Below the pieces are notes generated by a model. That model saw only the letters and a list, made by a program, of their open reading frames with translations. It was not told where the DNA came from and made no database searches. A stretch of DNA of 42,279 nucleotides, taken from NCBI GenBank assembly GCA_918244965.1, contig CAKJYC010000013.1, forward strand, positions 1 to 42,279, written 5' to 3'. The DNA is from Clostridiales bacterium. Its GTDB lineage: Bacteria; Bacillota; Clostridia; Christensenellales; CAG-138. Positions 25,929-42,279 of the stretch are shown here, piece after piece (the stretch's first letter is position 1; every line of letters starts with the position of its first letter). Made by a program: the position numbers and the translations under genes.

Positions 25929-25959
25929 GAGCCGTCCCGTAAGAAGGGGCGGCTCTTTT
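25929..25959. terminator. Intrinsic terminator between PII gene and phage cassette
   Basis: GAGCCGTCCC pairs with GGGGCGGCTC (one G:T pair), followed by TTTTC. The reverse side is GC-rich with GTTTG, a weaker stop for the convergent phage genes. Confidence 0.8.
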
Positions 25960-25969
25960 CGGTATTGGC

Positions 25970-26836
25970 TTACGCCGGGTATTTTTGCTTCAGCGCGTTG
26001 AAGCCGGACTTGCCGAGGCTTTTGATGATGTCGTAGCGCAGCGAGGCATAGGTGCCGTTGCCGAAATCGTACAGCTTGCGCCGCTCGGCGGACGACATGC
26101 GCGCGATCAGGTTGGCCGCCGTCTTGTAGTCGACCTTGTTCGTCTCCGGCTGTGCGTCCATGATCGTCTCAAGGAACGACTTCCCGGATTTCTGGTCGCT
26201 GCCGCCCGACGATTTCCCGCCGCTTCCGTGGGACTTGCCGGATTGATACGACTGGTACAGCGCCCGCGCGGCCTCCGCGGCCTTCTCACGCGCACGGTTG
26301 ATCTGTTCCGCATTGAACTGATCGACCTCCAGCTTCTTCTCCTGCTGAGCTTTCAGCGCGTCGTAAAGCTGCTGCGCAAGCATTGACGCATAATTGCCCT
26401 CCAGCGTGTCCACGTCGCGCATCTCGTTTTCAAACTGACGCTCCTTCACGTCGGTGACGTAGGTGCTCTGCCCCATGCCGCGCGACCATGCGTCGGCGTC
26501 GAGCTCCGCATTGATCCGTTCGGTCTGATCGCGGCGGTTTTGGATCGCCTGCTCGTATGCGGGCCGCAGCCAGTTTCGGATCGTCTCGGACAGTACCTCC
26601 TCCGACAGCGGCGTATATTCGACCAGTTCGGGCATATACTGCTTCAGCAGCTCCTCGAAGAGTTCTTCAAACGTCGGGGTCTTGCTTTGTCCGGTCTTTC
26701 CGGGCTTCGATCCGCCGGAGCCGCCCGTCGAAGGCTTTGTCCCGCCCGGATTCCCGGTCGAGGGCTGATTCGGCCCGCTTGCGGGATTGGTCACGCTGAT
26801 CGGCGGCGTCAGCGGTTTGATGGGTACTTTGATCAT
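25970..26836 (-). CDS. Phage cassette protein, unknown, possible internal virion protein
   Basis: A 288 aa protein. Residues 1-55 are Pro/Gly/Thr/Lys low complexity; 60-110 and 115-190 are helical, the second rich in Gln/Glu/Ala with a coiled-coil look; a second Gly/Ser/Lys linker lies at about 198-222; and the C-terminal 65 residues are helical and basic. It has a good AAGGAG site. It is the last gene of the cassette and follows a 65 aa gene. By place it may be an internal or ejection protein or tail stub. No enzymatic motif is visible. Confidence 0.6.
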   Translation of the reverse strand: MIKVPIKPLTPPISVTNPASGPNQPSTGNPGGTKPSTGGSGGSKPGKTGQSKTPTFEELFEELLKQYMPELVEYTPLSEEVLSETIRNWLRPAYEQAIQNRRDQTERINAELDADAWSRGMGQSTYVTDVKERQFENEMRDVDTLEGNYASMLAQQLYDALKAQQEKKLEVDQFNAEQINRAREKAAEAARALYQSYQSGKSHGSGGKSSGGSDQKSGKSFLETIMDAQPETNKVDYKTAANLIARMSSAERRKLYDFGNGTYASLRYDIIKSLGKSGFNALKQKYPA

Positions 26837-26839
26837 AGA

Positions 26840-27037
26840 TTATTCTCCTTCCGTATGTTCGGCAAACGCCGATTCGAGTTCCAGGAGCTTCTGAAACAGA
26901 AGCTCTAAGTTTTGGTTCAGGTTGTTTTCGTTCTGTGCAACGCTGCTGTCGTACGCGTCCCGGTCGTCGTCCGCGGACGGCATCCGCTGCAGATAGATCG
27001 GAAACATCGCCTGCATGCCGGTCGGTGTGTAAGCCAT
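26840..27037 (-). CDS. Small phage cassette protein (65 aa)
   Basis: An AAAGGAGG site precedes the ATG at 27037. The protein is acidic and Asn/Gln/Leu-rich, with a predicted helix NENNLNQNLELLFQKLLELE that could form a coiled coil. No family is recognised. It lies three bases before the last cassette gene. Confidence 0.6.
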   Translation of the reverse strand: MAYTPTGMQAMFPIYLQRMPSADDDRDAYDSSVAQNENNLNQNLELLFQKLLELESAFAEHTEGE

Positions 27038-27048
27038 ATGCGCCTCCT

Positions 27049-28476
27049 TTACGGCCGCTTCTGCTGATCGAACAGCAGCGTCAGCGGCGCATTGAGCGTA
27101 AACGGCGTGCCGTTTACCGAGGAGAACCGCAGCCGGAACACGCGCCCGACGCCCCGGAGCGGGATCTCCGTCACGCCGAGCGGCACGCTGGACAGGCGAA
27201 CCTGCGTTTCATACGTGCCGCCGTCGGATTCGACCCGCACGCCGAGCCTGCCGGAGCCGGACGCCGTCAGTCTCAATAGCGTCTTGTTCGTGTCCTTCCG
27301 GCCGAGGTCCGTGACGGGCGTGGTCCAGCGCACGTGGATCGGCGCGCCGTCGTAGGAATTGTTGTCGTCGAATGCGACGAGCTTGCCTGCGCCGGTCAGC
27401 GCATAGAGCGTGCCGTGCACCGTGCAGAAATCGACGACCGTGAAGCCGGTCCTTGTCATGTACCGGTCGCGCAGCACGTCGTATTCGATCACGATGTCGT
27501 TGTACGGCGCGTCGTGCCGCGAACGGATCGCAAAGTACAGCGTATCGCCGCAGACGGCGGACCGCACGCCGTACAGATCCGCGCGCTTCAGGAGCGGTTC
27601 GAGCGCACGGTGCGACGCGCCTTTGCGCACGGTCTGTCCGTCATAGAAGGACAGGCCGTCGTCGGTCAGAAAGTACAGCCGGTCCGCATAGCGCACGCAG
27701 GCGGTGTGCAGCGGCTGGCGGAATGCGGCGTCGACGGCGATGATGCGGTAGTTGGACGGACGGTCGCCGAGCAGGCGATAGAGCGAATCACGCTTGAAGA
27801 TCAGAAGCTGATTCGACAGCGCGAACAGGCCGGTGATCGGATCGTCGTCCACGCCGACGTCCGCAAAGCCGCCGGAGACGTTTTCGCTCGCGGGATCACT
27901 GCGCCAGTCGTCGATGGTGCGGCCGCCGCCGGGCGCCTTGCTCCAGTAGAGCCGGCCGGGCGCCGTGGGATCGCCCGCGGCAAACAGCCGTCCGAAGTAC
28001 AGCTCGGCGTAACGCATGGTCCTGTACGACTGCTTCTCCTCGGTGCCGAATTCCTCGACATAGCCGGTCGCCGCGTCGAAGGTCTCCATCGGCTCGGAGC
28101 CGCATACGAGCAGCAGCCGGTCGTCGGTGCCGATGCGCACCTTGAGAAAGTCCATGTGCTCGCCGGTCACGTCCCGCTCAAACTGATACAGCGGCCGCCA
28201 GAGATTCGCATTCGCGTCATAGCGGTACAGCATGTCCTTCGCCGCGGCAAGGTATTCGTTGCCGTGCTCGGTCGCGTATACGGTCATGCGTTCAAGATGC
28301 TCGTCCAGCGGCACCAGTGCCGGGACCGCGCGTGAAAAGCCGCACGCGGAGCAGAGCCCGCCGGAGCGCGTGTCCGCGTTCTCGGCGTCCGGACTCATAT
28401 CGAGCTTCAGAAGACCCTCGGACAAGTCCGTTCGCATGCCGGAGAACAGCGGGATCGTCATGGTCTGATAAGCCAT
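27049..28476 (-). CDS. Phage head-completion/tail-stub protein, beta-propeller like (P22 gp10-type)
   Basis: A 475 aa protein. It starts SGMRTDLSEGLLKLDMSPDAENADTRSGGL, a start typical of phage proteins that list virion ends, and is rich in repeated beta segments (YAELYFGRLFAAGD, ALSNQLLIFKRDSLYRL, VRYADRLYFLTDDGLSFYDG), a propeller-like pattern seen in podoviral stabilisation or tail-hub proteins. No catalytic residues are apparent. The order after the adaptor gene fits. A GAGGAGG site lies upstream. Confidence 0.62.
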   Translation of the reverse strand: MAYQTMTIPLFSGMRTDLSEGLLKLDMSPDAENADTRSGGLCSACGFSRAVPALVPLDEHLERMTVYATEHGNEYLAAAKDMLYRYDANANLWRPLYQFERDVTGEHMDFLKVRIGTDDRLLLVCGSEPMETFDAATGYVEEFGTEEKQSYRTMRYAELYFGRLFAAGDPTAPGRLYWSKAPGGGRTIDDWRSDPASENVSGGFADVGVDDDPITGLFALSNQLLIFKRDSLYRLLGDRPSNYRIIAVDAAFRQPLHTACVRYADRLYFLTDDGLSFYDGQTVRKGASHRALEPLLKRADLYGVRSAVCGDTLYFAIRSRHDAPYNDIVIEYDVLRDRYMTRTGFTVVDFCTVHGTLYALTGAGKLVAFDDNNSYDGAPIHVRWTTPVTDLGRKDTNKTLLRLTASGSGRLGVRVESDGGTYETQVRLSSVPLGVTEIPLRGVGRVFRLRFSSVNGTPFTLNAPLTLLFDQQKRP

Positions 28477-28488
28477 AGCCGCCTCCTC

Positions 28489-29043
28489 TCACCAGCAGTT
28501 CGTGATGCGGTAGTCGGTCGGCTCGTCAAAGTCGAGCCGGAACCGGCGCTTGCGCGTTTCGTACAGCGAGAGCACCGCAGAGGCGTGCTGTATGCCCTGC
28601 GCGTCGTTTGTCATGCAGAACCGTGCGACCATGTACAGCACGATCAGCGGATGACACGCGGCGGGCAGCGCCGGTTCGTCGTCGTCCTCGGCGAGCGGCT
28701 CCGGCAGATACCGGTACACGACCGTCATCAGGCCGTCCTTGACGCCCGGCACACGCACCGTCGCCGTATCGCATGAGAAGCAGAACGGCACGCGCATGCC
28801 GCTGCGCTCCACGCCGAGCACCTTTGCAACGGGATGCGGCAGCGCGGAAAGATCCAGCGTCTCGTTCACAAGCGGCAGCGTGTCGCGCCGCCACGGACGG
28901 AAGGTCTCAAAGAGATCGTCGACAGCCTCGTTTGCGAACCGCAGCAGCTTCTCGCACCACAGCGGGGACGTTGCGGTATCGACCGCATGATCCAGCTCGC
29001 CGAGCGCGTTTTGAATCAATTCGGCAGCCGTCACGGCGATCAC
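28489..29043 (-). CDS. Phage adaptor (head-tail connector) protein
   Basis: A 184 aa, mainly helical protein. The start codon is a GTG at 29043 that overlaps the stop of the 86 aa gene, with GAAGGA upstream. The layout LIQNALGELDHAVD... LLRFANEAVDDLFETFRPW... RYLPEPL... ACHPLIVLYMVARFCMTNDAQ is like connector proteins that bind under the portal in P22 and related phages. Identity is by pattern and position. Confidence 0.65.
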   Translation of the reverse strand: MIAVTAAELIQNALGELDHAVDTATSPLWCEKLLRFANEAVDDLFETFRPWRRDTLPLVNETLDLSALPHPVAKVLGVERSGMRVPFCFSCDTATVRVPGVKDGLMTVVYRYLPEPLAEDDDEPALPAACHPLIVLYMVARFCMTNDAQGIQHASAVLSLYETRKRRFRLDFDEPTDYRITNCW

Positions 29044-29300
29044 CCGATCCTTCTGCCGCCCTGCGAGGCGAACGCCTCGACTGCGCGCGCGCCGCGTATC
29101 AGCTCGCTGCGGCTTTCACGGACCACGTCAGCGATCCGCTTCGGCACCTCCACAAGCGTGTCGGTCGGAATGCGGAAGTTCACGCCGTTCAGACAGCCCT
29201 CCAGGAATGCGCCCGTACCGTCGGACGGCAAATAGATGCTGACGGTTTCTTCGGGCGTTGCTTCGATCTCGGTCGAAGCGGTGATTTCGGTTTTCTTCAT
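29040..29300 (-). CDS. Small phage cassette protein (86 aa), unknown
   Basis: It sits between the capsid and adaptor genes. The N-terminus is Thr/Glu-rich, then a beta segment EETVSIYLPSDGTGAFLEGCLNGVNFRIPTD, then a helix IADVVRESRSELIRGARAVE. It might be a head decoration or completion protein, but this rests on location only. An AAAGGAG site precedes the ATG. Confidence 0.6.
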   Translation of the reverse strand: MKKTEITASTEIEATPEETVSIYLPSDGTGAFLEGCLNGVNFRIPTDTLVEVPKRIADVVRESRSELIRGARAVEAFASQGGRRIG

Positions 29301-29318
29301 GTCTTTCTCCTTTCTGCA

Positions 29319-29344
29319 GGGGGAGGAAGTCTCCCTCCTCCCCC
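29319..29344 (-). other. Hairpin between capsid gene and next gene
   Basis: On the minus strand GGGGGAGGA pairs with TCCTCCCCC over an 8-base loop, without a T run. It lies in the 54-base gap after the major capsid gene, where phages often have leaky terminators or RNA-processing sites that keep capsid mRNA abundant. Confidence 0.5.
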
Positions 29345-29354
29345 GTCCGGTTCG

Positions 29355-30563
29355 TTATGCCGTGACGCCGTGCTCGATGCGCACGATCCACAGCGGGTTC
29401 AGAATCTTCGCGGCGTAGGCGGCGACCTTTGCGCCGACGGTCGCACGCTGGTTCAGCGGATCGCCGCTGCCCTCGCTGCCGTGCGGCTTGATGATCGTTT
29501 CCATCGTGCCGGAGCCGTCGACGTCGATGACGCCGTACGCGTCCGCGCCGAATACCAGCGTCGCATGGACGTCCGCGCAGCGGTTTCCGGAGATCGGCGC
29601 GCCGCCGTCATCCGTATAGATCGGCATGTTTGCCCCGTAGACCAGCGATTCCTCGATCGTCAGCGTGTTCGTTGCGCGATCGTAGGATTCGATCGTGAAG
29701 CTGTCGCCGTTGTAGTAGACTACATTGCCCGGCGTGGACAGGAAGCGGATCTGCTCCTCGGTCGGCGTCGTCCTGAACTGAATGTCATGCGTCGCCGTAG
29801 ATACGCCGTTCTTCGTCATCAGATAGATCGTCTGCCGGTAGACCTTCGCCTCGGTGGATTCGACAAATACAACGCCGAACAGACGGCCGATCTCGCCGGA
29901 ATAGATCTGCTCCGCATTGCTGTACTTCGATACGTCCTGCCAGAGCGGATCGCTCTGTAGATCGTAGGTTGCGTCCGGCGAACAGATGCAGACGAAGTGC
30001 GGACGGCGAACGGAGCCGTCGGTCGAGGTCGTGAACATGCGCGCCTTGTTCTTCTTCAGCGTGCGCACCGCCTTGCGGATCTCCGCGACGGTCAGCACGT
30101 CGGTCACTCTGACGGCCTTACGGTTCGTCCTGCCGTTTGCGTACTGCACGTTGGTCGTGGCGCACATGGCGTCGCGCGTGACCCACTCGATAACGGTGCC
30201 GAGCTGTTCGCCGAGGAGTTCTGCGGAATCCGCAAGCACCTCGTCGTACGCGGTCAGATCGAGAAGGTCGCTGACCTCGACATACGCGCCGTACTGGGCA
30301 AGCTCCGCCTCGACCTTGGACTGCGACAGGGACTGGCCGTTCGGCGTCACGCCTTCCACGAGCGTCAGCGCGTCGGCGTCGGGCGTAAAGAGGTCATACT
30401 TGCGGAATTCGACGCGCTTGCCGCCGTGACGCGGAATGCTGCGCTTCTGGCCGAAGCTCGCGTGGACGAGACGCGTCTTTGCGGTCTCGATCAGCTTCTT
30501 GTCATAGAACTGCTTGTTGAAATAGGCGCTGTTAGCCGTATTGATTGTGGTATTGATTGCCAT
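29355..30563 (-). CDS. Major capsid protein, N4-gp56 family
   Basis: A 402 aa protein. The N-terminal part (LVHASFGQKRSIPRHGGKRVEFRKYDLF, TLVEGVTPNG) and the pattern AELAQYGAYVEVSDLLDLTAYDEVL match the N4-gp56-type HK97-fold capsid family. A typical mid part with HFVCICSPDATYDLQSDPLWQDV and a C-terminal domain with GADAYGVIDVDG are present. It forms the shell of a podo- or related virion. An AAAGGAGG ribosome site supports the start. Confidence 0.9.
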   Translation of the reverse strand: MAINTTINTANSAYFNKQFYDKKLIETAKTRLVHASFGQKRSIPRHGGKRVEFRKYDLFTPDADALTLVEGVTPNGQSLSQSKVEAELAQYGAYVEVSDLLDLTAYDEVLADSAELLGEQLGTVIEWVTRDAMCATTNVQYANGRTNRKAVRVTDVLTVAEIRKAVRTLKKNKARMFTTSTDGSVRRPHFVCICSPDATYDLQSDPLWQDVSKYSNAEQIYSGEIGRLFGVVFVESTEAKVYRQTIYLMTKNGVSTATHDIQFRTTPTEEQIRFLSTPGNVVYYNGDSFTIESYDRATNTLTIEESLVYGANMPIYTDDGGAPISGNRCADVHATLVFGADAYGVIDVDGSGTMETIIKPHGSEGSGDPLNQRATVGAKVAAYAAKILNPLWIVRIEHGVTA

Positions 30564-30575
30564 AGGTTCCTCCTT

Positions 30576-30992
30576 TTAGATATGGACTCGTTTGCCGCTG
30601 TGTGCGGAGTTTCTGTACTGCTGTTCAAGCGCGTTGAACGCTTCCTTCGACATCTGCATGTAGTCCGGCGCAGGCGCAACGGCCCGGTCGGTACGCTGGG
30701 ATTTGGGCAGCGCGCCGCGTGTTCTCACCTGCTCGCTCATGCGGGTCTTTACGGTGTTTTCCGCGTCCTCCGCGCGCTTCTCCGCAACGTAGATACGCAG
30801 GGCGGCCTTCGGCTCAAACTCGAAGAGCAGCGCCGCAAACGCGGGATCCTGCGCCGCCTCCGAAAGGTCGAAGCCTTCGGGCAGCTCGCCGTTTTCTTCC
30901 ATTTCCGTCAGCACGTTCGCCGCTTCGATAAACGGGTTTTCCGTTTCGACCGGTTCGGCTTCGACGGGTTCCGGTTTCTTTTTGAAGATCAT
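30576..30992 (-). CDS. Scaffold-like phage protein
   Basis: A 138 aa hydrophilic, helical, acidic protein lying between portal and capsid genes, the usual place of a scaffold. The N-terminus is Lys/Pro/Glu-rich, the centre (LSEAAQDPAFAALLFEFEPKAALRIYVAEKRAEDAENTVK) is helical and the C-terminus is basic (RNSAHSGKRVHI), as scaffold tails that bind capsid often are. The start overlaps the portal stop (ATGA). The role is inferred from position and composition. Confidence 0.6.
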   Translation of the reverse strand: MIFKKKPEPVEAEPVETENPFIEAANVLTEMEENGELPEGFDLSEAAQDPAFAALLFEFEPKAALRIYVAEKRAEDAENTVKTRMSEQVRTRGALPKSQRTDRAVAPAPDYMQMSKEAFNALEQQYRNSAHSGKRVHI

Positions 30993-32605
30993 AGATTCCC
31001 TCCGAATTTCTTCTTTTTCATTCGTTCGGGAAACAGCGGTTCTTCGTTTTCCGCCGCCTCCCGCATGCTTTTCTGCACCTGTTCCTTGCCCTCAAAGACC
31101 ATCAGCGAGATCGCCTGTTCCTTCGTGATCGCGCCCATGGAAAGCAGATTCATCGCAAGCTCGTTCTGTGCCGCCGCTGCGAACCGGCTGCGGCGCACCG
31201 CCTTGATCGAGATCAGAAACTCGATCGGAAGCACCGCCCCGCCGGGCGCGCTCTTTTCGAGCGCCGCGCTGTCGAACAGCACCTCCTTCGGCTCGCCGTC
31301 GATCGTGATCGTGACCGGACGCAGATAGCAGTTGAACTCGCGCTCCGTCTCGATCTCAAGCCGCACCGCCTCGCGGAAAGCCTCGTGGAGCTGGTCGGTC
31401 GCCATGCGGGCGCGCTTGGTGCTCATCTCCTGCAGCGCCTCGATCGCGCGCGCCGCGGTCACGCCGGCCGATACCGTCCCGCGCGAAGAGTCGTTTGCGC
31501 CGCTCTCCTCCTTGATGTCGCCGCGGATGCTGCGAATGTACGCGAGCAGGTAATCCGGCAGCGGCGCGGTCGTCATCCATGTCACGCCGTTCAGGTTCTC
31601 ACCGGTGTGCACGTCCTTGGACCAGTCGCGAAGGTCGTCCGGATCGAAGCCGGACGCGTCGGTGATCAGCAGCTTGTTGTGCGACGCCATGAAGGCGTTC
31701 TTCAGCACGAGCTGATCGAGCTTGTCCGCGTACAGCTGCTGCGTGGCAAACAGATCGACGATGCCGAAGCCGAGGGCGCTCCCCTTACGCGGGTACAGCG
31801 TTGTCAGTACAAACGGATACCGACCGTGTGCAAAATAGCCCTCCGGCTTGACGTCGCGGCTGTCCTCCAGCACGACGCCGTTTGAAATGAGCGCCATGTG
31901 TACGCGATACGCGTCCTCGTCCGCGTCGTATTCGCGCCGCCAGTATTCGAGCAGCAGCACCGCGTTTTTCGGATCCGGCGACAGGATCTCGTCGGTGATC
32001 AGCTCCGCGGTATCGACGGGACGGGATTCGACCAGCGGATACAGGTCCGGATAATGCGTGCGCACCCATTCCTTCGGACGCAGCGCCAGCTTGAACACGG
32101 CGCGGCCGTCGTTGAGATCGGTCACAAGCGGATCGATCAGGATGCTGCGGATGTCGGCGTGGCGGATGTACGCGCCGCCGAGGCCGCCGTTCAGTGCGCT
32201 GTCGTAGCCGACCTCCTGGATGCAGTAGCCGCCGACCAGCAGATCGTGGATCATCCTTCGGTACTCGACCGGGAACGCGCTTGCATCGTGGTTTCTGCGA
32301 ATGACCGCGTCGATGACGCGCGCCGCGTAGTCGTCGACCGCGCTTTCCGGTGCGATGACCGCTTCCGGCATCTGATCCGCAATGTCGGCCGCCACGTTCT
32401 CGATCGTGGACTGCAGGATCGGCGTGACCGGGCGCGGCTCATTGGGATCGGTCACGGGAACGTCGTACCAATGCTCTCCGCGATACATCCGCTCGTTGTG
32501 CTCCTGCCGCCGCCACTCGTTCACATACGCTCTGCGGAACTCGGCAAAGAGCGTCATGGCTTCTTCGGCTAACCGCCGTTTGGTTTCGGATTGTCTTGGT
32601 TTCAT
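30989..32605 (-). CDS. Phage portal protein (P22-like)
   Basis: A 538 aa protein. The ATG at 32605 has AAAGGAA upstream; the longer frame upstream is not coding. Portal-type marks are an N-terminal helix with WRRQEHNERMYRGEHW, PVTPILQSTIENVAADIADQMPEA, the wing region with HADIRSILIDPLVTDLNDGRAVF, and a long C-terminal helical part (IKEESGANDSSRGTVSAGVTAARAIEALQEMSTKRARM) that fits the crown or stem. It forms the DNA entry vertex and binds the terminase. Confidence 0.85.
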   Translation of the reverse strand: MKPRQSETKRRLAEEAMTLFAEFRRAYVNEWRRQEHNERMYRGEHWYDVPVTDPNEPRPVTPILQSTIENVAADIADQMPEAVIAPESAVDDYAARVIDAVIRRNHDASAFPVEYRRMIHDLLVGGYCIQEVGYDSALNGGLGGAYIRHADIRSILIDPLVTDLNDGRAVFKLALRPKEWVRTHYPDLYPLVESRPVDTAELITDEILSPDPKNAVLLLEYWRREYDADEDAYRVHMALISNGVVLEDSRDVKPEGYFAHGRYPFVLTTLYPRKGSALGFGIVDLFATQQLYADKLDQLVLKNAFMASHNKLLITDASGFDPDDLRDWSKDVHTGENLNGVTWMTTAPLPDYLLAYIRSIRGDIKEESGANDSSRGTVSAGVTAARAIEALQEMSTKRARMATDQLHEAFREAVRLEIETEREFNCYLRPVTITIDGEPKEVLFDSAALEKSAPGGAVLPIEFLISIKAVRRSRFAAAAQNELAMNLLSMGAITKEQAISLMVFEGKEQVQKSMREAAENEEPLFPERMKKKKFGGNL

Positions 32606-32655
32606 CGTAATTCCTTTCTTTGTTTCTTCATGTGCCGCAGGCGACGGAAGGGTTG

Positions 32656-33987
32656 TTACAGTCCGCGGAATCCCGCATACGGCGGCGGCGCGCTCGAAAG
32701 CGGATCGTACCGGTACACGCGCTTTTGCGGCTGCTTCTGCGCGGGGCGCGGGCGGCTCATCAGCCCGTAACGCAGCGCCTCCGGCGCGTGGTCCTCGCAG
32801 TTGTCCGCGACGTCCTCGCAGTCGTGGCTGTCGAACGTCAGCATCGGCAGCGTGCGGATGAGATTGCAGCATGTCTCAAAGATCGAAAGCTCCGGAAGGC
32901 CGTCCGCAGCGGGGGCAAGCGCCTCGCGAATGCGCTGCCAGCCCGCAACACGGGTGTTGTCCGCCGGGAGCAGCGGCACGCCGTTTTTTGCGAACACCTC
33001 CGCAATGCTCTCCCCCTCTGCGCCCTTGAGCCCGCGCTGCTGCCACGCGTCGGGCGATGCGACGGTGTAGGCAATGCGCTCGCCCTCGGACAGCGCTCCG
33101 ACCCGTCTTGCGATCTCGCTCGACAGCGTCCGGCGAAGGTACATCTCGCGGTAGACGACGACCCGCCCCTCCGGCGCGACGGCAAACCACAGCACACAGC
33201 ACGGATCGTTGTAGCCCCAATCCATTGCGCGAAAGCGCTTCCACTCCATCGGGAGCCTCGTCGGGCTCACGACGTGCAGGCTGCGGTCGAACTCCCGGAA
33301 GAACTGACCCTCCAGTACGTCCCAGTTGCCGTCCAGATACGCCTTCTTGAGGTGCTCCGGCAGGTTTTCGAGCGCCGTCAGATACTGCGGATTATTCTTA
33401 AGCAGCACCGGATTGTCGGTGACACGCGCCGGGATGAATACATAATCCGCCGCACGCTCCGCCTGACGGTAATCGCGGTCGATGAACAGTCGCTTGACCC
33501 ACGCGTGCCCCACGCCGCCGGGGTTACAGGTGTAATACATGCGCGGCGTGAAGTCGGTCCGAACCGAGCGGTTGCAGGTCGTCAGAAACCGCATCTGCGT
33601 CTCGGTAAAGTGCGTCGCCTCCTCAAGCCCGATCACGTCGTACTCCTGCCCCTGGTACTGGAACACGTCCGCCTCGCGGTCGCAGTAGCCCAGCTTGATG
33701 CGGCTGCCGTTCGGGAAGAGGAACGCGCGCTGCGTCGCGTGGTACTGCACCGCGCCGGCGAGCTCCTGCTGCAGCGGCAGGACGTGGTTCTCGTTGAGCT
33801 CCGGGAGCGTCCGCCGAAGGAGCAGCAGTTTTAGGTTCGGATAACGAAAGGCAAGGAGCACAAACTTGCGGCGCATGGCCCACGATTTGCCGCCGCCGCG
33901 CGCGCCGCCGTAGGCGATGTGCCGCGCATGTGCAAGGAAGAACTGCTCCTGTTTCGGGTTCGGCGTGCCGGAAAGGCGCAGGATCAT
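32656..33987 (-). CDS. terL: Terminase large subunit
   Basis: A 443 aa DNA-packaging motor. The N-terminal ATPase has Walker A GGARGGGKS (residues 27-35) and Walker B YDVIGLEEA (116-124). The C-terminal RNase H-like nuclease has AMDWGYNDPC, the middle Asp in VASPDAW and an acidic patch CEDHAPEALRYGLM. All key residues are intact. A GGGGAGGT site lies inside the small-subunit gene, and the two overlap by four bases. Confidence 0.93.
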   Translation of the reverse strand: MILRLSGTPNPKQEQFFLAHARHIAYGGARGGGKSWAMRRKFVLLAFRYPNLKLLLLRRTLPELNENHVLPLQQELAGAVQYHATQRAFLFPNGSRIKLGYCDREADVFQYQGQEYDVIGLEEATHFTETQMRFLTTCNRSVRTDFTPRMYYTCNPGGVGHAWVKRLFIDRDYRQAERAADYVFIPARVTDNPVLLKNNPQYLTALENLPEHLKKAYLDGNWDVLEGQFFREFDRSLHVVSPTRLPMEWKRFRAMDWGYNDPCCVLWFAVAPEGRVVVYREMYLRRTLSSEIARRVGALSEGERIAYTVASPDAWQQRGLKGAEGESIAEVFAKNGVPLLPADNTRVAGWQRIREALAPAADGLPELSIFETCCNLIRTLPMLTFDSHDCEDVADNCEDHAPEALRYGLMSRPRPAQKQPQKRVYRYDPLSSAPPPYAGFRGL

Positions 33988-34229
33988 GTCGCATACCTCC
34001 CCGCCGCGTCGTCCAGAACGATCTTGATCGTGCCGTCCGCCTGTTGTTCCGGCGCGCCGGAAAGCCCCATCGACCGGATCGCCTCCAGCGCCGACTGATA
34101 GTTGAGCTCTCCGAGCAGCGTCCGCTCAAGCGTGTAGGCGGCGACCCGCAGGACCGCGTCGCGCAGGATCGCGCTCTCCTTCGAGCGCTTTTCGGCACGA
34201 AACGCCGCAAGGACCTCCTCCGGCGTCAT
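33984..34229 (-). CDS. terS: Terminase small subunit, 5' end probably lost
   Basis: It overlaps terL. From the ATG at 34229 the protein is 81 aa: MTPEEVLAAFRAEKRSKESAILRDAVLRVA..., a helical, charged region typical of the oligomerisation part of TerS. There is no Shine-Dalgarno at this ATG, and in-frame phage-like codons (IPYTLFGLARAA) run about 50 bases further to where the DNA turns AT-rich near 34290. The N-terminal DNA-binding part is therefore probably missing or replaced. The frame continues into the AT-rich DNA as far as 34466, which is by chance. Confidence 0.55.
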   Translation of the reverse strand: MTPEEVLAAFRAEKRSKESAILRDAVLRVAAYTLERTLLGELNYQSALEAIRSMGLSGAPEQQADGTIKIVLDDAAGRYAT

Positions 34230-34325
34230 GCATGCCGCCCGCGCCAGTCCGAACAGGGTGTAGGGGATCTGTCTCTCTACCGGTTTTGTCAAGGGAAATT
34301 TCAAAAATCTTAATTGTTGTACAAA

Positions 34326-34340
34326 TTTAATAGAATTAAA
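34326..34340. repeat. Short inverted repeat in AT-rich leader
   Basis: TTTAAT-AGA-ATTAAA is a perfect 6-3-6 palindrome upstream of the Schlafen-type gene's promoter. It may be an operator, but AT-rich DNA makes such motifs common. Confidence 0.3.
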
Positions 34341-34347
34341 ATGAAAA

Positions 34348-34371
34348 TTTAACTCGACAAACGAATTAAAG
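34348..34371. promoter_or_regulatory. Candidate operator overlapping the -35 box
   Basis: TTTAACTCG-n7-AATTAAAG covers the -35 box of the next gene. A similar sequence lies in inverted orientation just after that gene (36075-36099). Confidence 0.35.
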
Positions 34372-34382
34372 TCGGCTATAAT
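34354..34382 (+). promoter_or_regulatory. Promoter of the Schlafen/AlbA-type regulator
   Basis: TCGACA (34354-34359), 17 bases, TATAAT (34377-34382), about 20 bases before the Shine-Dalgarno. Confidence 0.7.
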
Positions 34383-34410
34383 ACAATTATCAAAAAATGA
34401 GGAGTGAGTT

Positions 34411-36069
34411 ATGCGAACGATTCCATTTACAGAAGGTCTTGAAACCGAGTTTAAAAGCGACATCAAATGCTATCCTGACCACGACCTAGTTGAAGAAGTT
34501 GTTGGTATGGCAAATACGATAGGCGGTACGATCTATTTAGGCGTAGAGGATGATGGTGTGATTACGGGGATTCATAAAAACCATAGAAATGCAATTGGCG
34601 CTGCCGCACTGATCGCAAACAACACCGTTCCTCCAATTGCTACCAGAACGGAGATTATTAAAGAGGAAAATAAGGATGTGTTAAAAATCGAAGTCCCAAG
34701 AAGCAGAGGAGTTGTTTCTACTTCATCCGGAAAAATGCTTCGACGCAGACTGAAATTGGATGGCACCCCAGAGCTTATTCCAATGTATCCCTATGAGATT
34801 CCATCACGTTTATCAGAATTGGGGATGTTGGATTTTTCGGCTCAGCCGTTGCCTGGTGCCACACTTAATGATTTAGATCCGACGCAAAGAATTCGACTAC
34901 GTCGATTAATACAAACGCGGCAAGGCGGAGAAAAAAATCTCCTTTCGTTACCTGATGATGAATTAGACATTGCATTGCACCTAGTGGCTGCTGTTGGAGA
35001 TGAAATGATTCCAACTGCCACTGGTATTCTTTTACTCGGAAAAGAAGAACGTATTGCAGAACTTATGCCGACAGCAAGATCCACTTTTCAAGTATTGGAA
35101 GGTACATCTGTTCGAATGAACGAAGAAAGCACGAAACCGTTGTTAGAGTTGTTTGAACAGTATGAAACATATTTAAAAGCATGGAATCCCGAAAGAGAAA
35201 TGGAATATGGCCTTTTAAGAATGCCAATTCCTGAGTTTGATTGGTCTGCTTTTCGAGAAGGGCTAGTAAATGCCTTTTGCCATCGGGACTATACTGTTTT
35301 AGGCAGCGTCAGAGTGATGATTGATGATGAAGGATTGGTCATAAGCAATCCAGGCGGATTCATTGATGGTGTGACTCTAAAGAATCTCCTTACAGTAGAA
35401 CCACATGGAAGAAATCCATCGCTTGCTGACGCAATGAAACGAATTGGGCTAGCAGAAAAAACGGGAAGAGGCATCGATCGAATATACGAAGGTTCAATTA
35501 TGTTTGGTCGTCCGTGGCCTGACTATTCTGAATCTACAAATAAAACGATCAAACTGTTCATTCAAAGAGCAAAGGCAGATTTGCCATTTATCAAATTCTT
35601 AGCTGATGAACAAAACCGAGTCGGAAAACCTTTGTCAATATATTCATTGATGATTCTCTCTTTACTAAATAGCGAAAGAAGAGCAAGTTTAGATCGTATT
35701 GTAAACGCTACGAACCTCAGCGAGAATAAGATCCATTCTGCATTAGAAAACATGGTAGAAACCGGATTAATAGAAGGTCTTGGTAAGGGTAAAGAGCGCG
35801 TTTATATCCTCGGAAAGAGAGTTTATCGAGAAAATAAGGAATACCTTGAGTACGTGCGTCAAACAGACATTGATAAAATACGCTATCCGGAACTTGTGAT
35901 GAAACTTGCTCGAACAAAGAACGGCATTATCTCTAAGAAAGATGTTATTGATCTATTGCATATTCCTTCTTCGCAGGCATATACTATTCTCCGCCACCTC
36001 CAGAACGATGGAAAACTCCAGCTTTTGTACGGAGGAAAATATGCGAAGTATCAAGTAATAGAATCTTAA
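34411..36069 (+). CDS. Schlafen/AlbA_2 domain ATP-binding transcriptional regulator-like protein
   Basis: A 552 aa protein with a GAGGAG site before the ATG. The N-terminus (about 6-125) is an AlbA_2/Schlafen domain, with TEFKSDIKCYPDHDLVEEVVGMANTIGGTIYLGVEDDGVITGI. The middle (about 255-350) is a HATPase_c_4-like fold with REGLVNAFCHRDYTVLG and PGGFIDGVTLKNLLT, and a Gly-rich KTGRGIDRIYE. The C-terminus has two winged-helix units (about 385-465 and 500-550). This is the layout of the COG2865 group, mis-named RecG-like helicases in databases. Such proteins are often in mobile or defence regions. AT-rich codon use is unlike the genes to its left. Confidence 0.85.
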   Translation: MRTIPFTEGLETEFKSDIKCYPDHDLVEEVVGMANTIGGTIYLGVEDDGVITGIHKNHRNAIGAAALIANNTVPPIATRTEIIKEENKDVLKIEVPRSRGVVSTSSGKMLRRRLKLDGTPELIPMYPYEIPSRLSELGMLDFSAQPLPGATLNDLDPTQRIRLRRLIQTRQGGEKNLLSLPDDELDIALHLVAAVGDEMIPTATGILLLGKEERIAELMPTARSTFQVLEGTSVRMNEESTKPLLELFEQYETYLKAWNPEREMEYGLLRMPIPEFDWSAFREGLVNAFCHRDYTVLGSVRVMIDDEGLVISNPGGFIDGVTLKNLLTVEPHGRNPSLADAMKRIGLAEKTGRGIDRIYEGSIMFGRPWPDYSESTNKTIKLFIQRAKADLPFIKFLADEQNRVGKPLSIYSLMILSLLNSERRASLDRIVNATNLSENKIHSALENMVETGLIEGLGKGKERVYILGKRVYRENKEYLEYVRQTDIDKIRYPELVMKLARTKNGIISKKDVIDLLHIPSSQAYTILRHLQNDGKLQLLYGGKYAKYQVIES

Positions 36070-36074
36070 CTCAT

Positions 36075-36099
36075 CTTAATTGAATTAAACGAGTTAAAG
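36075..36099. promoter_or_regulatory. Second operator-like sequence after the Schlafen-type gene
   Basis: The bottom strand reads CTTTAACTCG... then AATTAAG, sharing the nine bases TTTAACTCG with the upstream site but in opposite orientation. Confidence 0.3.
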
Positions 36100-36135
36100 A
36101 TGTGTTAACATCATTTATTGAATTTTCTATTTCTA

Positions 36136-36185
36136 AGCAGCGTAGTATCCGACACCCCCGATCGGATTCTGCGCCGCTTTTATTT
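36136..36185 (+). terminator. GC-rich hairpin terminator after the Schlafen-type gene
   Basis: AGCAGCGTAGTATCCGA pairs imperfectly with TCGGATTCTGCGCCGCT and is followed by TTTATTT. It is a GC-rich patch in AT-rich DNA, possibly a leftover of the older flanking sequence. Confidence 0.7.
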
Positions 36186-36531
36186 AACGTTAATAAGCCA
36201 AGTAAGAGATACATCAAATAATAATTAGATGGTTGAATCAAAAAATCGGCGCTATTCTCTCGATTTTATCAAATCATTCTATTTGGGGACTCGATAATTA
36301 CGTCCTTATTTAGCTAATAAGCATAAATTTTACGTTACCTTTCCATGCAAATTGCAATATATGTATATATGAAAAGAACAGACTTTTAGAAAATATATCC
36401 TGTTCCTACGAAGGAAAAAGCTGACCTACGGCGTCATAATATGTAAAACTATGTCACATTTGTTGCCTCTCGCACGTTATGTATATATAGATGGGCATAG
36501 CAAGAAGAAATTAAAAGGTTTCTTCGCAGAA
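36186..36531. other. Gene-poor AT-rich intergenic region
   Basis: About 350 bases without a supportable gene. An open frame from 36451 overlaps the sigma gene start and shows no ribosome site or family. At 36461-36489 TGTTGC, 14 bases and GTATATATA resemble the promoter-like elements downstream (spacer one base shorter), hinting at autoregulation of the sigma gene. Confidence 0.5.
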
Positions 36532-36559
36532 TTGACAATTCTCGGAAACGTATTACAAT
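36532..36559 (+). promoter_or_regulatory. Sigma-A type promoter of the ECF sigma gene
   Basis: TTGACA (36532-36537), 16 bases, TACAAT (36554-36559), followed by AAGGGAAGGA and the ATG at 36582. Confidence 0.65.
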
Positions 36560-36581
36560 ATTCCAAAGGGAAGGATAAAGA

Positions 36582-37148
36582 ATGCTCGTGCTGTTACTTT
36601 CGACAATTGAATCAGAAGACGATCAAGCTTTTCTTGAGAAGTTGTTCGACGCGCATTACGTTCGACTGTGCAAGAAAACTGCTGCGATTACGCAGAACAA
36701 TCAGGTCTCGGAGGATCTCGTACAGGATGTTTTTCTGTACGTTGTTAAGCATATCCAGAAGTTCCGTCAAATGGATTGTTGCACATTACGCCATATTCTC
36801 GATATAAGTATTAAGAGACGATGCTATGACTACTTCAAAGAACAGAATGTTCGAAAGAAGCATCTCTCCGGCAGTCTCGACGATGACGACAGTTTTGTTT
36901 CCGTTTCAAGTTCTGACAACACGGAAGAAGAAGCGCTTGACCACCTGACTGTCGAAGAATTATCTGAAGCAATCCGCAAGCTGCCCGATCATTACCGTTT
37001 TGTGATCGAAGCAAAGTACATACTGAATCTGACGGATGGCGAGATTGCAAAAGAGCTTGGGATCGGGAAAGCAAGCGTGAGACAGTATCTAACGCGTGCA
37101 AGAAGAAAAATCTATGAGTTGTGTGAAGGCGAGTCTAATGAAGAATAA
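36582..37148 (+). CDS. ECF-type RNA polymerase sigma factor
   Basis: A 188 aa group IV sigma factor. Region 2 (about 15-85) has VSEDLVQDVFLYVVKHIQKFRQ, the typical sequence for core binding and -10 recognition. An acidic Ser/Asp-rich link (about 95-118) leads to region 4 (about 122-180) with LPDHYRFVIEAKYILNLTDGEIAKELGIGKASVRQYLTRARRKI. It overlaps the next gene, which encodes an anti-sigma-like protein, the usual arrangement. Two downstream genes have matching bipartite elements that this sigma factor may read. Confidence 0.9.
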   Translation: MLVLLLSTIESEDDQAFLEKLFDAHYVRLCKKTAAITQNNQVSEDLVQDVFLYVVKHIQKFRQMDCCTLRHILDISIKRRCYDYFKEQNVRKKHLSGSLDDDDSFVSVSSSDNTEEEALDHLTVEELSEAIRKLPDHYRFVIEAKYILNLTDGEIAKELGIGKASVRQYLTRARRKIYELCEGESNEE

Positions 37149-37824
37149 CGAAGAAAAACTAAAAGCTGCCGTGCTTCTTGCGGCGCAGCGAGATGGAAAA
37201 GAGCTCATTGATGCGGATAACGCAGAACCGTGCGAACCGGCATCCAAAGAAGCGCGCGCCCGTCTATTTGCCGCTATTGAGAATAATAAGGAGAAGCCCT
37301 CCAAAGAACGGCATTGGTATTCGCCCACAGCAAAGAAGGTTGCAATCGCCGTTGCTTCGGTTATTATTCTGCTCATTATGATTCCTTCTACCACAGAAGC
37401 GGGTCGTAAATGGATTACCGAATTGGTTGGAAAAGTGTTTCCCTCATTCACCGAGTTTTTCCTTTCAGATAATGAAAAGGTGCCGAATCACGAAGTTAAG
37501 CGCTATACTCTTGGTTATGTTCCGAATGGTTTTCAATTAATATTTGAGGAGTATAGTACAGCCGGAAGCACATCCATGTATCGTAATGAAAACGATCTGG
37601 TCATTCACTTCGAAGTATTTGAATCAAGCGGTGTTATTCAGATTGATACAGAGAACGCCGATAGAATTGAAACAGTCTATATACAAGATGAAGAAGGAAC
37701 GCTAATTGCGCGAGATGGTATTACCACTATCATTTGGTCTGCCGATGAATTATGTTTTCTTGTTGATGGAAACATCGAAGAAACTGAGCTTGTGAAAATT
37801 GCAAATTCTGTTGAAGAAGAATAG
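37138..37824 (+). CDS. Anti-sigma-like membrane protein with DUF4367 domain
   Basis: The ATG at 37138 overlaps the sigma stop and has GAAGGCGAG before it. The 228 aa protein has a cytoplasmic part (about 1-62) rich in charged residues, one helix (about 66-84) and an outside DUF4367 domain (about 120-225; LGYVPNGFQLIFEEYSTAG, GTLIARDGITTIIWSADELCFLVDGNIEETELVKIANSV). DUF4367 proteins are common partners of ECF sigma genes in clostridia. It should hold the sigma factor until an envelope signal is sensed; no classic zinc-binding anti-sigma motif is seen. Confidence 0.8.
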   Translation: MKNNEEKLKAAVLLAAQRDGKELIDADNAEPCEPASKEARARLFAAIENNKEKPSKERHWYSPTAKKVAIAVASVIILLIMIPSTTEAGRKWITELVGKVFPSFTEFFLSDNEKVPNHEVKRYTLGYVPNGFQLIFEEYSTAGSTSMYRNENDLVIHFEVFESSGVIQIDTENADRIETVYIQDEEGTLIARDGITTIIWSADELCFLVDGNIEETELVKIANSVEEE

Positions 37825-37828
37825 AATT

Positions 37829-37869
37829 ACTGTTGCACTTTTGTCTCCTGTGTCGATATAAGTAATAGA
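37829..37869 (+). promoter_or_regulatory. Candidate ECF promoter, first copy
   Basis: ACTGTTGC (37829-37836), 15 bases, GTCGATATA (37852-37860), then AGTAATAGA. The same three blocks with the same spacing recur upstream of the next secreted-protein gene (38331-38371). The predicted start is about 20 bases before the 37888 ATG. Confidence 0.6.
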
Positions 37870-37887
37870 AGACGCAGGAGGTTTTTT

Positions 37888-38319
37888 ATGAAAAGAATTA
37901 TTATTCTTGTTTTGTCTACAGTATTAATCTTTACATCTATTTCAATTACAGCTGCGGATGAAATCAATAGCACAACGAAAGAAACCATAATGGATAATAG
38001 ATTTATCGGTCTTTATCGTGCGACCTCATCTATAGGTATTACAAATAATACCGCTAACTGCAAAGCAACAGCCTTTGCTAAAACCACTGATTATTCATTG
38101 TATGTGATACTTTCCTTGCAAAAGAAATCCGGTGCGAATTGGAATAATATTATAAGCTGGAGCGACACTGGAAGTGGTCTTACCGGTGTTGTTTTAAGCA
38201 AAACAAAGTCCAGTCTTTCCTCTGGCACTTATCGTTGCAAAGTATATGTAAGAGTATATAATTCCAATGGTACCTTTATAGAGTCAACCACTGTGTACTC
38301 GCAACCGCGATCAATTTAA
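37888..38319 (+). CDS. Small secreted protein, DUF6147-like (143 aa)
   Basis: A GCAGGAGG site precedes the ATG. The signal peptide is about residues 1-23 (FTSISITAADE). The mature part has repeated beta strands: TANCKATAFAKTTDYSLYVILSLQKKSG, SWSDTGSGLTGVVLSKTKSSLSSGTYRCKVYVRVYNSNGTFIES, a beta-sandwich layout common among small clostridial secreted proteins. Two Cys could pair. It is probably the effector controlled by the sigma factor. Function unknown. Confidence 0.65.
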   Translation: MKRIIILVLSTVLIFTSISITAADEINSTTKETIMDNRFIGLYRATSSIGITNNTANCKATAFAKTTDYSLYVILSLQKKSGANWNNIISWSDTGSGLTGVVLSKTKSSLSSGTYRCKVYVRVYNSNGTFIESTTVYSQPRSI

Positions 38320-38330
38320 TATATTATAAG

Positions 38331-38371
38331 ACTGTTGCTTTCTATCAAGTTCAGTCGATATAGGTAATAGA
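38331..38371 (+). promoter_or_regulatory. Candidate ECF promoter, second copy
   Basis: ACTGTTGC (38331-38338), 15 bases, GTCGATATA (38354-38362), then GGTAATAGA. It is identical in layout to the first copy, though the spacer and flanks differ. About 220 bases separate it from the ATG at 38590. Confidence 0.6.
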
Positions 38372-38589
38372 GCATGTCATTAATGACTAATAACATAATT
38401 AGTACAAAAACTATATTAGAACAAATAAAGTGATTACGATTAATTCGACTTTAACCACTTTTGTAAACAGTTAAGAAGGGGGTGTAAACGGGGTTTGACA
38501 GATGTCTGTAAATAATAGATCGACGCTGTTGCGAATTAAGCAACAAAAACACCCAATTACTACGCATTTTGTTTGAGGAGGATGTCAAA
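38372..38589 (+). other. Long leader upstream of second secreted-protein gene
   Basis: This 218-base non-coding stretch has a 12-base palindrome GTCATTAATGAC (38376-38387) and a small GTTGC/GCAAC hairpin near 38528. No family of structured RNA is recognised. Confidence 0.4.
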
Positions 38590-39021
38590 ATGAAAAAACT
38601 TGTATCTTGTGTTCTAACTGCATTGTTTATCTTTTGCCTAGGATCATCCGCAGTAGCGGTAGGCTTCGATGGATATTGCAAAAACTACTTTTTTACTGAT
38701 GATCCCGTAACAAAAGAATATAGTAGTGAAGACTATGCTTCAGTCTATGTTCAAACACATGTTTTCGATGGAACAAGTAATAATTGCAAATGTACAATGA
38801 GGCTCTATCTTGATGGATCAACCTCTGTAAAAGCATCAAATGTTATGTACGTGAACACGAATGATGGGTATAACGCACATAAAACCGCCCATTTAGTCTC
38901 TGCATATAGAGGAAATGCTGGCGTTGATACCGATTTTCATTTAAAGGTTGATAATACCTATCATAGAGGAACTAAAATTCATATTGCAGGGAATTATTCA
39001 TTGACAACATCAGGAAACTAG
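38590..39021 (+). CDS. Small secreted protein, unknown (143 aa)
   Basis: The ATG at 38590 follows GAGGAGG. The signal peptide is residues 1-23 (CLGSSAVAV). The mature part is rich in Tyr, Asn, Thr and Asp, with three Cys; strands such as NNCKCTMRLYLDGSTSVKASNVMYV and FHLKVDNTYHRGTKIHIAGNYSL suggest a beta-sandwich. Its length equals the preceding secreted protein, but sequence similarity is not evident by eye. It probably belongs to the same ECF regulon. Confidence 0.65.
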   Translation: MKKLVSCVLTALFIFCLGSSAVAVGFDGYCKNYFFTDDPVTKEYSSEDYASVYVQTHVFDGTSNNCKCTMRLYLDGSTSVKASNVMYVNTNDGYNAHKTAHLVSAYRGNAGVDTDFHLKVDNTYHRGTKIHIAGNYSLTTSGN

Positions 39022-39038
39022 GACTCTATCGCTTTATA

Positions 39039-39070
39039 ATGATGAACTGCGGAGTCCCGCAGTTCATCAT
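39039..39070. other. Perfect 14-base hairpin without T run
   Basis: ATGATGAACTGCGG pairs with CCGCAGTTCATCAT over the 4-base loop AGTC. It lies between the secreted protein and a membrane protein gene. With no T run it may be a 3' end protector, a leaky terminator or a processing site. The in-frame ATG at 39039 is within the stem. Confidence 0.6.
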
Positions 39071-39083
39071 TCAATTAAACATA

Positions 39084-39770
39084 ATGAAACAAGTATTAAG
39101 AAATTTGATTCGTATTTCATGGTATCGTTGGACTGTACTCTTTTTCCTAACAGTTACCATTGCATATGTAGATATAAACAGTACTGCTGGAATTTCAAGC
39201 AATTTTTTGCTTTCAGAGTTATCTGATATAACAAATATTTGCTTTATTTTTCTATATCTTTATCTAATATTACTATCTGATTGCTATGATAGAAAAATGA
39301 CTTTTTTTGCAACAATGCTATCTGTAGCTTTTGAAACAGTAATCTTTTTTATTTGCCTATTTATTTGTTATGCTTTAGCTTTATTATTATGTGGTTTGTT
39401 GTCATGTCAAGTAGGTAACTGGTTAACTAAAGGCCTGATAAAAACGGTTTTCCTTCTATTTTGCAGATATTTCTCTTTTGGAATGCTAATTGTTATTCTT
39501 GATTCAAAATCAAGATCGAAATATGGCTTTATAGCACCAATAATCATATCTATAGCCGAAACATATTTTTACGATGTATTCAAGATAACCCATTCCCTGT
39601 ATGTTCTTCCAATAGAGAACTCGCGCATATATTATACACCAACGTACTATGGATTTAATGGAAGCCCTCCATCATTTGGTTTCCAATGTGTTTATTGGGT
39701 CATTCTTATAGGGATACTAACTTTTATTTCGTTTTTAACAATGAGGAAAAAAAGAAATGATAAAAAGTAG
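39084..39770 (+). CDS. Multi-spanning membrane protein (possible ABC-2 permease-like)
   Basis: The start at 39084 (MKQVLRNLIRISWYRW) is preferred because the upstream ATG at 39039 is inside a strong hairpin; neither has a clear Shine-Dalgarno. The 228 aa protein has about six helices (about 14-32, 47-65, 78-105, 120-140, 150-170, 205-222). It resembles ABC-2 type permeases only by layout; no ATPase gene is nearby. It overlaps the next gene by 14 bases. Confidence 0.55.
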   Translation: MKQVLRNLIRISWYRWTVLFFLTVTIAYVDINSTAGISSNFLLSELSDITNICFIFLYLYLILLSDCYDRKMTFFATMLSVAFETVIFFICLFICYALALLLCGLLSCQVGNWLTKGLIKTVFLLFCRYFSFGMLIVILDSKSRSKYGFIAPIIISIAETYFYDVFKITHSLYVLPIENSRIYYTPTYYGFNGSPPSFGFQCVYWVILIGILTFISFLTMRKKRNDKK

Positions 39771-40554
39771 AATAAAAATGCTTTTGAAGCAGAAAATACT
39801 GTGGATTGCAGCAACAATGATTTGCATTTTTGGATATATAACGTTTCAATGGAATTATGATGTTCTAGAACTGCAAATGTTTACTCCTATTAGTGCTGCA
39901 GATAAGTTTTTGATTAGCTTCACAATAGGTAACAATGCATCTTTGTTTTTATACCCGGTTTTCGCTTCTATTCCTTGCTCAATAATATACACACAAAGTA
40001 CAAAAACATGGATTACTAAAGCTATCCCCAAAAAACTGTTTTGCAGGAACATATTAGTTGATCTGACGACATCATTCATGTCATCAGCAGCATTATTTAT
40101 CATTAGCTTTTTGTTTTACTATATAATAATGGTACTATTTTCAAAAGATTTCTCTTATCAATCTAAACTCTTACCTTTTTATGATTTTGCGCCTTTATTT
40201 CCGAGCGCGCTTTCTCAAAATCCTTATATTATTAGTGTAATTTATTTAATTCATACCATTATTGTAGCAGGTGCATTCTCGTGTATGTGCTTTAGTTTAG
40301 TAATTGTTACAGACAATTGTCCTGTTGCTGTTATTTGTTTAGCAGCATTGAATTATTTTTCATATTGTATTCTCTCTCTTCCTGTTTTAGGTAAAATAGT
40401 TTCATATTTCATACCTTTCTTTCTTTTTGAAGTTGCTTCGTTTACCATAGATCCTGTAGCACATTATTGTCAGATCGTGTCAATGTATTTATTTAGTTGT
40501 TTTCTATTACATTTTCGGATTAGAAAGCAAAGATCTTTGATAAATAAAATATAG
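39757..40554 (+). CDS. Multi-spanning membrane protein (ABC-2 permease-like)
   Basis: A 265 aa protein with about six helices (about 15-32, 58-78, 95-120, 150-178, 185-205, 230-252). The N-terminus MIKSRIKMLLKQKILWIAATMICIFGYI looks like the start of ABC-2 permeases. It overlaps the preceding gene and has AGGAAAA upstream. The two proteins may form a dimeric membrane unit lacking its own ATPase. Confidence 0.58.
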   Translation: MIKSRIKMLLKQKILWIAATMICIFGYITFQWNYDVLELQMFTPISAADKFLISFTIGNNASLFLYPVFASIPCSIIYTQSTKTWITKAIPKKLFCRNILVDLTTSFMSSAALFIISFLFYYIIMVLFSKDFSYQSKLLPFYDFAPLFPSALSQNPYIISVIYLIHTIIVAGAFSCMCFSLVIVTDNCPVAVICLAALNYFSYCILSLPVLGKIVSYFIPFFLFEVASFTIDPVAHYCQIVSMYLFSCFLLHFRIRKQRSLINKI

Positions 40555-40563
40555 GAGGCTCAT

Positions 40564-41991: not shown

Positions 41992-42014
41992 ACGGTATTT
42001 AGGAATTACTTTAG

Positions 42015-42056
42015 CGAGCCAGAATGTCTAAATCCGTTCTGGCTCGTTATCCTTTC
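42015..42056 (+). terminator. Intrinsic terminator after lipoprotein gene
   Basis: CGAGCCAGAA pairs perfectly with TTCTGGCTCG over a 12-base loop. The T tract is weak (TTATCCTTT). Confidence 0.7.
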
Positions 42057-42061
42057 AATGC

Positions 42062-42279
42062 TTGAGCACAATTTATAAGAATCTGCGATTAGCATTGGCA
42101 TTACAGCGTGAATACTTCTAACATGAAAAGAAGTCGAATAAGGACGCAATAAAAAAAGTTAAAGTTGTTCCTTCGGTGTGCTTAAAGTTGGCCGATTTAC
42201 TTTTAGAGAGCGGCGAATACGAGGAAGTAATTGAAATAGCAGCTGCTGGGATTCGTAGTTCTGCGCAAGATCAGCCTTC
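42062..42279 (+). pseudogene. TPR-like fragment with in-frame stop, runs off the window
   Basis: One frame reads IYKNLRLALALQREYF, then a TAA stop (42119-42121), then HEKKSNKDAIKK and LADLLLESGEYEEVIEIAAAGIR to the right edge. The latter is TPR-like (A-x-L-x(3)-G-x-Y-E-E). No ATG or Shine-Dalgarno fits, so it looks like a decayed or interrupted gene. The continuation is outside the window. Confidence 0.35.

Follow-up and report, generated by a model that had tools for sequence, protein, structure and literature searches.

A domesticated phage cassette and an unlinked lysis operon as a probable gene-transfer-agent-type regulon in a Christensenellaceae-related lineage

Ten co-oriented minus-strand genes, at positions 25970-34229 of the analysed window (the whole stretch of 42,279 nt, which is contig C13 of the source genome, G000), encode phage-type packaging and structural proteins, and no integration or autonomous replication genes are found within this cassette. 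The question is what such a locus is. A sequence-only reading of the window, which had already delineated the ten genes, offered three options: a decaying prophage, a satellite using a helper, or a domesticated particle resembling a gene transfer agent (GTA). The third option is favored over the other two by purifying selection, by conservation of the cassette as a single copy that is passed on vertically, and by an apparently co-regulated lysis operon. The cassette and the lysis operon are probably remains of a domesticated phage, forming a host-controlled GTA-type particle regulon of a Christensenellaceae-related lineage.

Family searches name TerL, portal, major capsid protein (MCP) and adaptor (Table 1), and the gene order is TerS (partial)-TerL-portal-scaffold-MCP-86 aa-adaptor-nozzle-65 aa-288 aa. 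The phage-derived structural and packaging genes encode particle parts, and TerL carries, as first read, its Walker A motif (GGARGGGKS) and nuclease residues. The profile of the scaffold-like protein matches the proteins at the scaffold position in phage contigs L286 (4e-26) and L293 (8e-31). The AlphaFold model of the 475-aa protein (pLDDT 93.6) matches the Pa223 tail (2e-24) and P22 gp10 (2e-16) in a Foldseek search against the PDB, as well as VP1 and T7 gp12 tail chains; by its predicted fold, this protein is a podovirus tail nozzle. The model of the 288-aa protein has no significant match in the PDB, and its homologue in L286 comes after the nozzle gene; it is possibly an internal ejection protein, although we propose this only weakly. 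The cassette abuts a terminator next to a host PII-like gene, and its GC content (0.60-0.66) resembles that of the host side at left; the initial reading had likewise noted a host terminator and a host-like composition. An insertion domain of the MCP (residues ~245-325) was rejected as a mark of domestication, because it is present in many phages.

Table 1. Positions of the cassette genes and neighboring features (window coordinates, unless contig C15 is given).
Feature	Position	Strand	Remarks
Intrinsic (Rho-independent) terminator	25929..25955	+	between host PII-like gene and cassette end
288-aa helical protein	25970..26836	-	place conserved; model pLDDT 82
65-aa conserved protein	26840..27037	-	median dN/dS 0.18
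Short-tail nozzle, beta-propeller (predicted), 475 aa	27049..28476	-	AlphaFold model and Foldseek
Head-tail adaptor (SU10_adaptor), 184 aa	28489..29043	-	PF24175 5.8e-10
86-aa protein behind MCP	29040..29300	-	kept in all complete cassettes
MCP, major capsid protein, 402 aa	29355..30563	-	phrog_1357 4e-71
Scaffold-like protein, 138 aa	30576..30992	-	sits between portal and MCP
Portal protein, P22/SU10 type, 538 aa	30989..32605	-	P22_portal 9e-20; phrog_156 3e-43
TerL, large terminase, 443 aa	32656..33987	-	Terminase_3/6N; phrog_979 3e-52
terS, C-terminal part	33984..34289	-	broken after codon ~37 by integrative element
Right part of ~17.8-kb AT-rich integrative mobilisable element	34290..42279	.	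other part G000:C15:11600-21559
Large serine recombinase of element	C15:16704-18527		PF00239/PF07508/PF14287
MobA/MobL relaxase of element	C15:19369-21075		PF03389

TerS had been described as partial. It is indeed truncated in G000, where insertion of a mobile element has split the gene and left the N-terminal half of terS on contig C15 (11499-11615). In relatives, terS is intact and encodes ~130-141 aa (L022:7325-7750, PF16677 1.8e-6). The junction between terS and the element reads CCCTTGACAAAACCGGTAGAGAGACAG, and host sequence picks up again at AGAGAGACAG. Contigs C13 and C15 share exactly 141 nt at their far ends, so that the two terS halves are separated by the whole element, the cargo of which includes an AlbA_2/RecG-like regulator, an ECF-like sigma factor and a DUF6034 protein. 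In a second species (G016), an element end of nearly the same sequence is found at the same terS base, with other cargo. In G006, this base is where two contigs break; they overlap by 55 bases, perhaps as the trace of a mixed population. The insertion parts nine cassette genes from their promoter; because the operon is thus cut off, particle production should be off in the G000 strain, which can probably make no loaded particles unless the element excises. The element is similar to Tn4451/TnpX-type elements in its large serine recombinase, its MobA/MobL relaxase and the GA at the junction, but differs from them in sitting in the terS of a domesticated particle and in that another species carries, at this very site, an element whose cargo is different. 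The terS codons ERQIPYTL at the insertion point (window 34245-34275, GAGAGACAGATCCCCTACACCCT) have nearly identical DNA across species, rare AGA included. A pac-like site in terS, considered on the basis of these conserved codons, was dismissed, as they are only modestly unusual among cassette windows.

In sister genera, genes for a BppU-type receptor-binding protein, an endolysin and a holin adjoin the cassette. A profile of the endolysin from these sister genera was used to search the genus, and led in G000 to a three-gene lysis operon at C82:226-1395. It encodes an NlpC/P60-SH3 endolysin together with two small proteins, one of 69 aa that is XhlA/holin-like (phrog_689 1e-6) and a membrane protein of 63 aa. 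The initial statement that lysis genes are missing therefore holds for the cassette but not for the genome. No further phage gene lies near this operon. Its host neighbors, namely pseudouridine synthase, lipase-like, SpoVT/AbrB-like and galE genes, are the same in most of nine other relatives that were inspected. A search for BppU-type receptor-binding proteins over the genus yielded one weak match only, in G011. G000 also carries an ordinary siphophage prophage with a tape measure gene and its own lysis module (C47:1640-12000, L158). Two other loci were rejected as the lysis locus of the regulon: the one on C47, which is part of this tape-measure prophage, and a lone NlpC gene on C14, which is not accompanied by holins.

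A putative regulatory sequence links the two loci. An identical 23-bp element, AAAAACTTCCGGGAAGTTTTGGC, with a perfect palindrome in it and an extended -10 after it, is located upstream of terS (on C15) and of the lysis operon (on C82). At up to 3 mismatches, these are the only two sites in the 2.33-Mb G000 genome, against a chance expectation of 0.003. Among 11 genomes, the element varies by species, yet is alike at the terS and lysis loci within each genome: mean local scores are 28.0 within and 13.5 between genomes (permutation p 1e-5), and all within-genome scores exceed the 99.9% shuffled value. This two-locus identity and joint variation indicate that the terS and lysis operons probably constitute one regulon, and suggest that operator and regulator have co-evolved. 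Relatives have further copies of the element, at a distance of 38-76 bases from the gene or operon that follows: a CHC2-primase/AAA_25 helicase operon, an initiator-like gene of the HTH_36 type, or a different winged-helix gene. The primase/AAA_25 helicase operons are under the element in G003 (which has several copies), G009 and G021. Four such small operons (L406, L408, L409 and L410, in G003, G009, G021 and G007, respectively) stand alone among host genes, and the helicase gene adjoins hutH in G003 and G007. G000 itself has no close copy of the relatives' primase/helicase operon, and no replication operon under the element.

The MCP is present as one copy in 20 of the 23 genomes of the genus (split over two contigs in G022), the other three genomes having completeness values of 59-82%. 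In other genera of the family, it is found in 11 of 14 genomes, with an identity that drops with decreasing kinship. Three near-complete genomes of these other genera (G025, G026 and G036) lack it, so that the cassette can be lost. All compared genomes are drafts, mostly MAGs; wherever one contig spans the cassette in the genus, the ten genes show constant order and near-constant lengths. In sister genera, the cassette is split and rearranged, the MCP and 288-aa genes being separate from TerL-portal, and both from adaptor-nozzle, with every gene still open. A strictly fixed chromosomal place was rejected: the conservation of position for which the first reading had proposed a check extends to neighborhoods common within subclades only.

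A cassette tree (TerL, portal, MCP and nozzle) was compared with a host tree built from two genes, argS and serS, for 25 genomes. They have 12 of 22 splits in common (shuffled null mean 0.23, maximum 3), and path lengths are strongly correlated (Mantel r 0.94; null maximum 0.55). Pairwise dN/dS values, calculated with the simple NG86 method, are below 1 in every cassette gene, with medians of 0.16-0.43 over the ten genes. For close pairs, they range from 0.07 to 0.23 for portal, TerL, MCP, adaptor and nozzle (TerL 0.10-0.18; portal 0.07-0.11). No frameshifts were found in the relatives' cassettes, and the reading frames, reported as intact in the window, are intact in almost all relatives. The cassette is thus vertically inherited in the host genome and under purifying selection; judged by these comparisons, it behaves as host genes do, and not as a roaming or dying prophage. 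One relative bears the NCBI name Christensenella sp. UBA3792 (Christensenellaceae), and many records of relatives give ruminant digestive tracts as the source. Head-building and packaging genes of an old phage, along with the distant lysis operon, appear to have been inherited in rumen Clostridia across many speciation events.

A scenario can be proposed in which the cassette is what remains of the packaging, head and short-tail genes of an ancestral temperate podovirus, whose holin-endolysin operon persists at a separate chromosomal place. A common putative regulator would bind the palindrome just upstream of the extended -10 at both operons and turn them on together in some cells; TerS and TerL would then fill the heads with pieces of host chromosome, and the lysis operon would free the particles. 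The GTA-type reading is based on analogy with FpGTA, in which a second operon brings lysis genes, and with CcGTA, in which accessory genes share regulators; by the same analogy, we infer particle formation, a cargo of random host DNA and its delivery. Against this reading stand the three near-complete genomes that lack the MCP, the broken terS of G000, and the fact that TerS retains a recognisable gp3-type domain, so that packaging might be sequence-specific. More speculatively, and with rather low confidence, there may be a clostridial GTA regulon tied by a fast-evolving palindromic operator, evolving in concert at packaging, lysis and some primase/helicase loci, with the conserved terS stretch serving as an integration site for elements that reversibly switch particles off.

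A domesticated particle might also have another job, as a PBSX-like killer or as a lysis-linked packer without delivery. No clear receptor-binding protein is found in the genus, whereas a BppU-type one adjoins the cassette in sister genera; this counts against a GTA and keeps a PBSX-like particle viable, and PMC12946183 allows such an action for FpGTA. But the full portal-adaptor-nozzle set, needed by DNA-loaded particles, is under selection, and we regard another job as fairly unlikely. Decay of a prophage, or a cassette dead in the G000 strain through the terS insertion, is still less probable: terS is interrupted and integrase and receptor-binding genes are absent nearby, but the insertion accounts for this strain and one other only, while single-copy conservation in almost all relatives, intact genes, low dN/dS and a host-like tree are all opposed to decay. 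Neither a full prophage at the same site in relatives nor relaxed selection with many frameshifts, the outcomes that would have refuted the initial reading, was found.

Dependence on a helper prophage, as in PICI-like satellites, might be suggested by the C47 siphophage prophage and by the accessory primase/helicase operons sharing the operator in some relatives. The resident siphophage is of a different kind, and the cassette, which is vertically inherited, itself encodes the terminase, portal, capsid and nozzle. It shows neither the integrase nor the dependence on a helper capsid that characterize PICIs, and we consider a satellite highly improbable. We give equally little credence to a still infectious temperate phage with modules scattered over the chromosome. 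Primase/RepA-like and initiator-like operons do share the operator in G003, G006, G009 and G021, but integrase and clear receptor-binding genes are missing, the modules stand alone among host genes, and G000 does without a replication operon under the element.

If the GTA-type reading is true, capsid-mediated transfer of host DNA would be an old inherited trait of many Clostridia from rumen and gut, a large group. The operator lets the regulon be searched from sequence, and the terS insertion provides a natural on/off comparison between strains.

Among phages, the closest head modules are those of IMG/VR podovirus contigs L286 (38.5 kb) and L293 (39.7 kb), followed by the more distant Bacillus megaterium phages Page, Pony and Pascal, the MCPs of these relatives being 37-68% identical to that of the cassette. 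L286 has the same TerL-portal-scaffold-MCP-adaptor-nozzle order, but continues with a 1755-aa protein not in the cassette, while L293 differs by an integrase-like gene and a receptor-binding-like gene. Seven short IMG/VR "viral" contigs (L276-L281 and L283) group with the MCP clade of the cassette, and are probably chromosomal fragments of such cassettes. In a class-wide sample, the MCP family is detected in 54 of 391 genomes. Nearly all genomes of several genera in one other family have it, in clades separate from that of the cassette; domestication may therefore have occurred more than once. In family f42, an MCP-86 aa-nozzle cluster (L241-L244) is found with neither TerL nor portal within ~10 kb on each side; it represents another group of this kind, with an evolution of its own. 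Identification of f42 as Ruminococcaceae was rejected, as f42 comprises only 38 genomes in the sample.

Known GTAs provide the last comparison. RcGTA and CcGTA are of siphovirus-type ancestry. Their hosts, Alphaproteobacteria, belong to another phylum. In the present system, a palindromic element is common to the loci. RcGTA and CcGTA resemble this system in combining a vertically inherited structural cluster with distant accessory genes under a shared regulator; in CcGTA of Caulobacter, accessory genes located elsewhere share the regulators GafY and GafZ with the main cluster (PMC11150451). FpGTA of Faecalibacterium, with two operons, has been shown to form 40-nm heads containing 8.4-8.9 kb of host DNA (PMC12946183, 2026). 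Its likeness to the present system is one of gene layout as described: a ten-ORF podovirus-like operon with TerS-TerL-portal-scaffold-MCP and further genes, holin and endolysin genes in another operon that is not linked to the first, and presence throughout a genus of gut Clostridia (PMC12946183). A marker protein for Faecalibacterium had no match in the 391 class genomes, an empty result that carries no weight. FpGTA operon II adds baseplate, tail-fibre and receptor-binding genes, while the present second locus has three lysis genes only; a co-evolving operator and a terS insertion, both seen here, are not described in the text consulted (PMC12946183). The same source reports GTA-like packaging in two Christensenellaceae genera, for which it identifies no operon (PMC12946183); our results provide a candidate operon, a lysis partner and a control element in a related lineage.
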